The translations under genes were made by a program, and so were the position numbers. The notes beneath the pieces were generated by a model. The model did no database searches and was not told the DNA's origin. It was given only the letters and a program-made list of their open reading frames with translations. DNA of 39,516 nucleotides from NCBI GenBank assembly GCA_020053015.1, contig JAGVNY010000171.1, positions 1 to 39,516 of the forward strand, read 5' to 3'. Of this stretch, positions 33,915 through 36,979 are shown piece after piece; position 1 is the first letter of the stretch; the number at the start of each line of letters is the position of its first letter. This DNA is from Candidatus Zixiibacteriota bacterium. GTDB lineage: Bacteria; Zixibacteria; MSB-5A5; JAABVY01; JAHJOQ01.

Positions 33915-34050
33915 ATACTGCCGGGCTTCTGACGATGTTATCGACTTTTGGCGATTTGTCAATAGGAAAGTGGGAGCGCACACACGCGCAGGACCGAAGG
34001 CGGGATCCGAGCCGCTCCTCGGCGGACGGGAAGTTCCAATCAGTCGGTGA

Positions 34051-34150
34051 GTAGGTCGGCCTCTGGAGCCACGCGGCGCGTGGCGTAGAAGGCCAACAAG
34101 TCAGTGTCGGGTTTCTTCTTGCGCTCCGCGCAATCCAGAACCCGACCTAC
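34051..34150 (+). repeat. 100-nt GTAG...CTAC composite repeat, copy 1
   Basis: Two nested hairpins (GCCACGC/GCGTGGC; GTCGGGTTTC[TTGCGC/GCGCAA]GAACCCGAC); inverted copy at 36721-36820. Confidence 0.9.
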
Positions 34151-34237
34151 TCGAATCAAGCATCTCACAACCTTTGGAACAACCTCAGAACTCTCACCGG
34201 CGTAGGACAAAAACGAATGTTTTGCAGTTCTATCCGG

Positions 34238-34576
34238 CTAAGGCTTCAGATTCTTTCTGATCTCTTTCAGCAAGTCTCTCAGATAAGATTTCTCGGCCTG
34301 TACTGTCATGATGCCGAATTGCTCGCTTTTCTCAATTGCTGCAATGACGTCGTTACGCGACATCGGTGGACCGGAAATCGCCCGAACCGTGTAGTCGGGA
34401 CCCTTTCGGTGGCGCTCTGCGATTAGCTTCTTGAGATCATCTTCACTAAGTGTATCAATGTCGACAATCCTCTCCTCTCCGGACACGATCTCGTCGTAGA
34501 GAATGAACTTCTCGCGAGTTGGGTCATAGCACAGCGGTTTCTTGCGATTGGCTTCATCTATCTTGGGCATCGGCAT
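34238..34576 (-). CDS. Small protein homologous to the N-terminal domain of the adjacent caspase-like protein
   Basis: 112 aa; AGGAGG RBS; ungapped alignment over ~93 aa with the 34766-35893 product. Confidence 0.85.
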   Translation of the reverse strand: MPMPKIDEANRKKPLCYDPTREKFILYDEIVSGEERIVDIDTLSEDDLKKLIAERHRKGPDYTVRAISGPPMSRNDVIAAIEKSEQFGIMTVQAEKSYLRDLLKEIRKNLKP

Positions 34577-34686
34577 ATGAGTTCAACCTCCTGTTACCGC
34601 ACACATTACTTCGCGAGTTGCCGAGCGGCTGTGATTCATCAGATTATACACACTCGCTCCCCTGTTCAGCAAGATCTGAGTTTGCG

Positions 34687-34720
34687 TCCGGGCTGCCTGA
34701 CCAGCGTCCGACAGCCCGGA
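34687..34720. repeat. Inverted repeat between caspase-like gene and small-protein gene
   Basis: TCCGGGCTG ... CAGCCCGGA (9-bp arms); possible attenuator/terminator. Confidence 0.5.
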
Positions 34721-34765
34721 GAGAGCAGCATCAGACGAGCTCAATGTGCTGAATCAGTCTCGATA

Positions 34766-35893
34766 CTAATCCTCAAGCACGCCTGCTAATGCCAGAGCAT
34801 CCTCGCGTTCGAGCGCCGTCATCGGGAAACAGACCTTTACATAGCGATACGGAACGATCTTTGCTGAAGGATTGCCCAACAGCTTCAGGTGGTCTCTGTC
34901 CCATGTTAAGTACGTTGCGGCGACAGTGTTAGGCACCTGTGCGATAGCGGCATTGAACGCCTTAACGGTGGCTTCGTATGCCTGCTTTGCCGTAGCACCG
35001 TTGGCCATCATCACGTCGTAAGTGCTATCGGACTTTGCGAAGAGCAGGAACTCGTTGACCGGTGTCGACGAGTTATCCCACATCAGAATGAAATTCTCGG
35101 TATAGCCTGCATACGAGTTGGCGCCCTTCGAGACCGTGTCGGGTCCGAGCTTGCTTGCGGTCTGGCAGCTCAGGAAGTGAATCGATTTTGGTTTCACTTC
35201 TGCCGGATCGTAGTGTCCGACTTCCAATATGTGGTTGCCGGCGTGTCCCGTATACACTGAGTAGTTGCCGTGTCCGATGCCGCTGATGTAGACGGTCAGG
35301 CCGTTCTTCGCCTGAGGCACGAAATTCTGCCGGATGTCATCAGTGCCAGTCAAGGCAACTTTGGAAAATCCCCGAGCCACGAATACAGGATGAACGTTCT
35401 TGATCCTGTAGTTGGCGAATGGCGTCGTTACCCCGTCCGTTGTGTTCTCGCAGAAGAGCACACGAGTGCGGAGGCGCAACTTAATGCACTTCTTTACCGG
35501 CTTCCACGGTGGTATGCGAGGCACCGTCGGTTTCGGCACTGTTGGCCAAGCCGGGAGCGCCCCTCCGCCGAGAGATGCCATCAGCTCATTGCAGTACTGC
35601 ATTTCCGCTCGCAATGCCTTCTGCCCGAACTCGGTGCGCTCCTCGATCTGCTCCATCACTTCGCTCTTCGTCAGCACACCTACTCCGATGACTCCGAGCT
35701 TGAATTCAGGCTCGAGCGCGTATCGCTCCAGTGCCAGCTTGATCTGGGTATCCTCGTCGAGTGTGAACAGCGAGCCCAGACTTAGGCTCGGCTGCGCAGC
35801 AACATCGCGCGCGGTCAGGAACTGGCCGGTAGGTGAAACCGTCAGAGGTTTCTTTGCGGCGTATTCCTTGAATTGCAGGTTCCCGATCTTCAT
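34766..35893 (-). CDS. Caspase-like (clan CD / C25-CHAT-like) putative cysteine protease with N-terminal adaptor-type domain
   Basis: Candidate His in VYISGIGHGN and Cys in SIHFLSCQTASKLG; downstream GANSYAGYTENFIL...; start at MKIGNLQF behind AGGAGG. Confidence 0.65.
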   Translation of the reverse strand: MKIGNLQFKEYAAKKPLTVSPTGQFLTARDVAAQPSLSLGSLFTLDEDTQIKLALERYALEPEFKLGVIGVGVLTKSEVMEQIEERTEFGQKALRAEMQYCNELMASLGGGALPAWPTVPKPTVPRIPPWKPVKKCIKLRLRTRVLFCENTTDGVTTPFANYRIKNVHPVFVARGFSKVALTGTDDIRQNFVPQAKNGLTVYISGIGHGNYSVYTGHAGNHILEVGHYDPAEVKPKSIHFLSCQTASKLGPDTVSKGANSYAGYTENFILMWDNSSTPVNEFLLFAKSDSTYDVMMANGATAKQAYEATVKAFNAAIAQVPNTVAATYLTWDRDHLKLLGNPSAKIVPYRYVKVCFPMTALEREDALALAGVLED

Positions 35894-36720
35894 GATCGAC
35901 CTCCTGTAACCCCATTTACCTAACCACATGCATCGTGCTGCCGCTCCGGCTTGGGGTTATTCACCGGAGAGGTTGAGCACGTGCGCCTTGCGCCCAACCA
36001 GCACCGCCCTCAAACACGCTCATCGCCTTGCGTTCGATTTCCTGAACCCGACTTCGCGGTGCCGGGCTGCGGCACGTTGAAGACTGTGATCAAGATTCGA
36101 TTCTGGCTGCCAAAGCCCTTCTTTGACAACCAAACCTACACGAAAGTCAATCGACTATCGGACCGGTTGAACAGCTACTGCGATGCGTCACTGTACGAGA
36201 ACAGCCTCGCTAATACGGATGCAATAACTGGTGCAAAATCGAGTTGCAGTACCGTGATGAAAAACCCAACGTGAACAAAATAGCACTATTTAGGTATGGT
36301 TGTCAACCTAAAGATTGAATGGCCCGGACGTTTTTTTGAAGGTATGGGAGGGCCGAGTATGAGGACGGCACGACAGCCACATGATGACTTGAACGATTCC
36401 GAATTTGCCCTAACACTTGCTTCTGGTAAACTGGGGGATGAAGGGACCGATGTGAAAGCCGCTCAGCTCGAGCAATGCCCTTCTCTGCAAATGCGCTGTT
36501 AATCCTCTCTTCTCCGATGTCCTTGTCAGCGTACGACGCAGCCGTGCATTGGCGGAGGATCACCACCAAACATGACATTTATCAGATAGACTATGTCGTC
36601 AATGTCGATGTGACAAAGGAATGGTTTCGTCTGCGGACCGGACTGCCGAGGCAAATCGGCAGGTCATGTGGCGTCGAGAATACCGAGGTTGTCCCACAAG
36701 TAGCGAAATGCTTGATTGGA

Positions 36721-36820
36721 GTAGGTCGGGTTCCGGATTGCGCTATGCGCAAGAAGAAACCCGACACCGACTTGTTGGCCTTCTGCGTCACGCGAAGCGT
36801 GACTCTGGAGGCCGACCTAC
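36721..36820 (-). repeat. 100-nt GTAG...CTAC composite repeat, copy 2 (inverted)
   Basis: Reverse complement matches 34051-34150 at about 88/100 positions by manual alignment. Confidence 0.9.
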
Positions 36821-36827
36821 TCAGTGA

Positions 36828-36929
36828 CCCGCAACCACTTGAAAGGGCGCCGGGTCACACTCCCCGCTTTGGCGGGGAGCAAGACCCGTCGCAATTTTTC
36901 GGGCGGTTCTGGGTTTTTCAACAAGCCCC
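36828..36929 (+). repeat. Second structured repeat family, copy 1
   Basis: CCGCAACCACTTG...GGGTC ACA CTCCCCGC TTTG GCGGGGAG CAA GACCC GTCGCAATTTTTCGGGCGGTTCTGGGT...CAACAAGCCCC. Confidence 0.85.
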
Positions 36930-36979
36930 CTTGTTCCGGGTTTATGGCTTTGCTCTGCTCATTGGTGCCGCGAACTATT

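Follow-up and report, generated by a model that had tools for sequence, protein, structure and literature searches.

The window, a 39,516-nucleotide stretch of a Candidatus Zixiibacteriota contig (JAGVNY010000171.1, assembly GCA_020053015.1), contains two adjacent genes on the minus strand, whose coordinates and strand in the initial annotation were confirmed. The long gene (34766..35893) encodes a protein of 375 amino acids composed of an N-terminal domain (residues 1–110, positions 35564..35893, minus strand), a Pro-rich linker (residues 111–135, positions 35489..35563, minus strand), and a clan-CD-like catalytic-type domain (residues 136–352, positions 34838..35488, minus strand). The N-terminal domain is delimited by its alignment with the free domain and by the same predicted secondary structure. 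The small gene (34238..34576) encodes a protein of 112 amino acids, a free-standing copy of this N-terminal domain. The start of the long protein at position 35893 is backed by the motif MK(I/V)GxLxF, which is kept in all five homologues, and a longer open reading frame (ORF) beginning at 35929 has no conservation support in these sequences. The leader that had been described as near-identical in front of both genes turned out to be a real 19-nt match (84%), albeit weaker than claimed, with a strong Shine-Dalgarno sequence at its center. At the other four loci where the pair occurs, the long and small genes share no such match, and the leader is therefore not characteristic of the system.

The gene order SurE – tRNA-Pro – SLOG protein – acylphosphatase is common to the window and six related genomes. 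The distance between SurE and tRNA-Pro, calculated from gene coordinates, is 79–234 bp in the six relatives versus 3,064 bp in the window, and this extra sequence (33916..36979) holds the pair. The pair was inserted into an otherwise conserved SurE/tRNA-Pro site. A dispersed MITE-like repeat stands on either side of the pair in opposite orientations, the left copy at 34043..34208 on the plus strand and the right copy at 36663..36828 on the minus strand, 82% complementary over 166 nt. Interpretation of this 166-nt inverted repeat as the ends of a transposable element was ruled out because these are two copies of a dispersed element and, with at least 40 copies of it in the genome, the flanking repeat gives no evidence of a dedicated transposon. 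The MITE-like element has a palindromic GAGTAGGTCGG...CCGACCTACTC core, is about 105–140 bp long, and is present in at least 40 copies in the window genome.

Distribution and mobility of the gene pair

Homologues were searched for in one genome per species (85,462 species) using exact short-peptide patterns. Such a scan catches close relatives only, and therefore the rarity of distant relatives is less certain. Homologues of the long protein were found by the long-protein scan in Chloroflexi (locus L003, 71% identity), Phycisphaerae (L004, 63%–64%), and Bacteroidales (L005, 60%). The small-protein scan revealed a fourth locus, in the phage contig L008, where the long protein was 57% identical. 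At all five loci, the window included, the small gene was located directly downstream of the long gene on the same strand, and no third neighbor was common to the five. The surroundings comprised a glucosamine-6-phosphate-deaminase-like gene at L004, ankyrin-like and alpha-L-fucosidase-like genes at L005 (the names being our readings of the ORFs), and terminase and portal genes at L008.

Apart from the seed genomes, the pair was missing from all genomes searched among the relatives of the window genome (148), its phylum (134), the order of L005 (295), and the class of L004 (348). Plasmid searches returned no homologue, and searches of phage records yielded the virus vir519 as the sole one. In L008, the AT-rich pair (31%–40% GC) adjoins GC-rich phage genes (56%–63%), and the pair was missing from all 79 related terminase loci. 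The two phages most closely related to L008 have, upstream of the HNH gene that they share with it, a gene for an nSTAND1 NTPase. In L141 (1671-4395), the phage cargo located upstream of HNH-terminase consists of an nSTAND1 NTPase gene and a weak GIY-YIG-like gene. The position of the L141 cargo is that at which L008 bears the protease pair, and the L008 site looks like a variable cargo site. Alternatively, L008 is possibly a chimeric contig or host DNA located beside a prophage. In L005, the pair lies between direct repeats of 46 nt, which were considered as a sign of an integron/attC cassette; this candidate was rejected since the same repeat is present elsewhere in the contig. REP-like intergenic repeats of 46–66 nt with a GCTCGC..GCGAGC hairpin were observed at L005:2417, 2483, 4554, and 6544.

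Judging from these sequence comparisons, the pair is a rare mobile unit that appears to have spread between distant phyla and onto phage. Carriage at mobile or variable sites, as is usual for anti-phage defense systems, was observed in two forms, the SurE/tRNA-Pro insertion and the phage contig L008, and PADLOC gave no match for either protein.

Over all pairs of loci, dN values were 0.22–0.40 for the long gene and 0.23–0.50 for the small gene, while dS was at or near saturation. Low dN together with saturated dS indicates that both genes encode real, constrained proteins, and the comparison of dN with dS across the five loci points to purifying selection on both. Within the long protein, identity between loci was the highest in the catalytic-type domain (62%–77%), intermediate in the N-terminal domain (43%–69%), and, among the internal segments, the lowest in the linker (36%–52%). 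The distances of the long and small genes correlate (r = 0.77 for only five loci), a value that was reached in 8 of 120 label permutations and that agrees with both genes having been inherited together. Neither the curated libraries nor the literature searched contain this pairing, the domain family, or the peptidase group; the parts themselves, a clan-CD-like peptidase and a small interaction domain, are of known kinds.

The catalytic-type domain

The predicted catalytic residues of the long protein are His208 in GIGHGN (codon at 35270..35272, minus strand) and the predicted nucleophile Cys243 in HFLSCQTA (codon at 35165..35167, minus strand). As noted initially, the HG and C motifs are confined to the long protein. 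The His and Cys are invariant in its five homologues and in the viral relative P0003, and the wider motifs Y(I/L)SG(I/V)GHG and HFLSC are invariant in the long proteins of all five loci. The spacing between His and Cys is 35 residues in each of the five long proteins and 36 in P0003. For comparison, C25 peptidases from related genomes have a spacing of 34–35 in all 26 cases and of 35 in 24 of them, although these 26 sequences are close to one another and therefore not independent. A loose pattern of the dyad matched no protein outside the family among 393 local ORFs. The strand context, in which the His and the Cys each terminate a core strand, was read from the sequence.

Searches of the catalytic region against Pfam, NCBIfam, PADLOC, PHROG, and PDB returned nothing above threshold. 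The only peptidase family in Pfam with a sub-threshold match was C25 (PF01364), and the match was to P0003 (E = 0.015, 15 bits with a cut-off of 23); neither the long protein (P0001) nor its homologues matched PF01364 above the gathering score. Matches of the long protein to Glyco_hydro_67C (E = 6e-4) and LemA were rejected, being below the cut-off and different between homologues. In the AlphaFold2 (AF2) model, pLDDT of the catalytic core was mostly below 40, and the order of strands and helices in the modelled part was compatible with clan CD. Comparison of the catalytic domain by hhalign with home-made profiles of C25, C14, and CHAT resulted in weak matches, in which the His or Cys columns coincided where aligned. 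In the reversed-profile controls, C25 was within a factor of about twenty in E-value, and the C14 control scored better than the real profile. No secretion signal was seen in the long protein.

Based on its sequence motifs, the long protein is probably a cytoplasmic clan-CD-like cysteine peptidase. The caspase-like reading proposed initially is retained with respect to the invariant clan-CD-like His/Cys dyad, but the dyad is nearer to that of gingipain-type (C25) peptidases than to that of caspases (C14). The GHG...SC dyad and its spacing resemble those of the C25 peptidases of related genomes, while the score below the Pfam gathering threshold, the lack of a visible secretion signal, and the different N-terminal domain distinguish the long protein from them. 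It is, as predicted from these features, C25-like in motif and not a member of C25, and the homologues represent an apparently new peptidase group, clan-CD-like and missed by the curated libraries. The lack of a confident fold or a curated family match could also mean that the HG and C motifs are structural and the protein has some other activity. We consider this improbable, since all five homologues have the dyad unchanged and at the distance typical of C25 (36 residues in the viral relative, which is 26% identical), the strand-helix order of the modelled part fits clan CD, and the viral relative has a sub-threshold C25 match. Peptidase C25 itself is abundant in the phylum of the window, being found in 57 of 59 genomes with up to 21 matches per genome, and CHAT is also common.

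The N-terminal domain and its free copy

The gap-free likeness of the small protein to the N-terminus of the long protein, reported in the initial annotation, was recovered by BLASTP, which aligned 102 residues in a single ungapped block, 27 of them identical (E = 9e-11). The Smith-Waterman score was 108, compared with an average of 26 and a highest value of 58 over 5,000 shuffles. The profile comparison proposed as a check of this relationship, carried out with five-member families of free and fused domains, gave a significant match of both N-terminal regions (96% probability, E = 1.1e-9). In addition, a profile of the long protein retrieved the small protein as the second match in each of the five genomes or records.

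Fused and free copies share 19%–26% identity within a locus and the same 19%–26% between loci. Because identity within loci equals that between loci, the duplication is older than the spread. The duplication that gave rise to the free and fused domains is therefore predicted to predate the dissemination of the pair across phyla, and both copies appear to have been retained since then as a divergent pair with distinct putative roles.

The AF2 model of the small protein (pLDDT 88.3, pTM 0.81) represents an alpha/beta fold in which a beta hairpin is followed by helices, the final helix being long, and the same elements were predicted for the N-terminal domain of the long protein. Foldseek found no match to the small-protein model, the best E-values in PDB and BFVD being 0.39 and 0.93, respectively. 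The domain had no Pfam match above the cut-off and was not recognized by any sequence library. The small protein has no transmembrane segment, second effector domain, or flexible cleavage linker. The sequence PLCYDPxR is invariant in the small protein at five loci, and a Pro, two Leu, an Arg, a Gly, and a Glu are invariant across 13 domain sequences.

More distant relatives of the domain were sought with a ten-row profile combining fused and free copies. Three more proteins, all from Chloroflexi, about 132–142 amino acids long and consisting of the solo domain, were found at E-values of about 1e-6 (L135:1291-1719; L136:1394-1807, minus strand; L137:1429-1827). They bear an extra N-terminal RCGRWKLKPFELPRPV segment and are unnamed in Pfam and NCBIfam. 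Their genes are located near epimerase, flavin-oxidoreductase, or msrB-like genes, and no related protease was found within up to about 9 kb per side in two genomes and within the 2.7 kb of the third contig. The search for other fused or solo occurrences that had been suggested initially revealed the pair at five loci and the solo domain in three Chloroflexi genomes. Given its occurrence as a solo protein, the domain may serve interactions in general and not be an inhibitor dedicated to the protease. The sequences define a predicted domain family that is found fused, paired, and solo, with a core of Pro, Leu, Leu, Arg, Gly, and Glu.

The viral relative P0003, encoded by the archaeal Caudoviricetes virus vir519 (BK063666) attributed to Methanofastidiosa, is 26% identical to the long protein over residues 171–348, lacks the N-terminal domain, and contains a C-terminal hydrophobic segment. 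Among 298 ORFs of vir519, the best match to the domain profile was an ORF of 66 amino acids with a domain-like C-terminal half (E = 0.0086, not reached by any of 1,918 shuffles). This ORF and the protease-like gene form a pair at L006:3708-4651, and the stop codon of the former overlaps the start of the latter by 4 nt. As the match spans only about 34 residues, the split arrangement is taken as suggestive that the domain and the protease can work as separate chains. A second vir519 ORF (P0007), considered as a homologue of the small protein, was rejected as a chance match.

Possible role of the free copy

The succession of N-terminal domain, Pro-rich linker, and catalytic domain corresponds to the layout of a latent protease with a pro-domain. 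The reading we favor, held tentatively and with slightly less than even confidence, is that the two genes form a small protease module that is mobile, in which the free copy is a trans-acting cognate regulator, inhibitor, or threshold partner of the protease. The N-terminal domain would hold the peptidase latent or recruit it, and the free copy would bind the peptidase in trans, most probably as an inhibitor setting the activation threshold. A trigger such as infection would then remove the inhibitor, making the peptidase active. We infer the peptidase activity, the binding of both proteins, the inhibition, and the defense or addiction role from the gene layout and sequence features; wide sporadic transfer and phage carriage possibly suit such a role. 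The initial annotation proposed that the free domain is a regulator, adaptor, decoy, or substrate of the protease; of this, the homology of the free and fused domains and their pairing in five unrelated contexts are supported, while any such role is putative.

A narrower version of this reading is possible but doubtful. It regards the pair as a self-sufficient two-gene protease/anti-protease module, in which the duplicated pro-domain is a dedicated trans-acting antidote, functioning as a proteolytic toxin-antitoxin or abortive infection system. This putative, hitherto undescribed module would be phage-borne and transferred across phyla, and its domain would be one for which no relative with a known structure or function can be detected.

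Stand-alone relatives of protease propeptides are known in eukaryotes. In Plasmodium, a propeptide-like protein, SUB1-ProM, is encoded beside subtilase genes and inhibits SUB1 (PMC6993865), and the propeptide-like inhibitors of MEROPS family I29 include CTLA-2alpha, crammer, and BCPI (PMC4089206). Similarly, the small protein is a free homologue of the N-terminal region of a protease, the assignment of this region as a pro-region following from the layout, and, as in the case of SUB1-ProM, it is encoded beside the protease. On the contrary, SUB1-ProM and I29 inhibitors act on the subtilase and papain clans, are eukaryotic, and have no sequence relation to the domain described here, for which inhibition is a prediction. 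Within the gingipain-type peptidases, the propeptide of RgpB blocks its own enzyme (PMC13366090). Should the free copy indeed inhibit or gate the protease, the pair would represent a minimal bacterial case of the eukaryotic pro-domain/inhibitor logic, in the form of a mobile unit of two genes whose small size permits complete testing in a laboratory strain. The locus also adds a new small domain family and a clan-CD-like peptidase group that the curated libraries miss.

The effector-associated domains (EADs), which pair with caspase-like or trypsin-like effectors (PMC7159879, PMC8195603), offer another, rather unlikely explanation, according to which the domain is a homotypic or heterotypic recruitment module and the free copy scaffolds or clusters the protease so as to activate it, or connects it with a sensor not seen here. 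In the layout described for EADs, a caspase-like effector carries a small non-catalytic domain of which the neighboring gene encodes a second copy, as is the case here, the domain exists solo elsewhere, and EAD4, EAD5, and EAD10 have predicted alpha+beta folds like the small-protein domain. However, adjacent EAD copies tend to be closest to each other (PMC7159879), whereas the fused and free copies of this pair resemble each other no more than they resemble copies from other phyla. Moreover, no STAND, MoxR-vWA, or other core NTPase/vWA component was conserved beside the pair at the inspected loci, and the domain matched no known domain model. The comparison with EADs made initially therefore holds for the layout and fails for the similarity of adjacent copies. 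The EACC1-caspase system (PMC7159879) likewise consists of two genes, one for a small protein and one for a peptidase of the caspase superfamily, but EACC1 has a single transmembrane helix and is encoded by the 5′ gene, while the small protein described here is encoded by the 3′ gene, lacks a transmembrane segment, and duplicates the N-terminal domain of the protease itself.

Instead of regulating the protease, the free domain could be its substrate, cleaved to free an active fragment, as in the caspase-nuclease (canu) defense system, bacterial gasdermin, and Craspase. The genes are strictly paired, PLCYDPxR is invariant in the small protein, and protease/pro-effector pairs are an established logic (PMC12799240). 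In canu, the caspase-type protease purifies in complex with its partner CanB, but, unlike the pair described here, the canu partners are not reported to be related, and no nuclease gene is located beside the pair (PMC12799240 for canu). The small protein is the same compactly predicted domain as the N-terminus of the protease itself and has neither a second effector domain or transmembrane segment nor a flexible linker for cleavage, which makes the substrate role unlikely. The idea that neither protein acts on the other, a chance-duplicated cargo domain having moved with the protease gene as one piece, agrees with the passenger genes of mobile units and with the solo occurrence of the domain, but is very unlikely given that, over deep divergence and with purifying selection on both, precisely this pair and no further shared neighbor has been retained at each of the five loci.

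A strong hairpin is located between both genes in the window (34687..34720, minus strand), and at all five loci a stem-loop of roughly 11–13 bp is present no more than about 50 nt from the protease stop codon (z from −2.4 to −4.9), its sequence being unrelated from locus to locus. No T-run follows the stem-loops at any of the five loci, so they are not canonical intrinsic terminators, and promoter and terminator scans gave nothing clearly exceeding the shuffled expectation. The hairpin may attenuate read-through or stabilize the mRNA end, and its presence suggests that both genes are expressed in unequal amounts and controlled separately.
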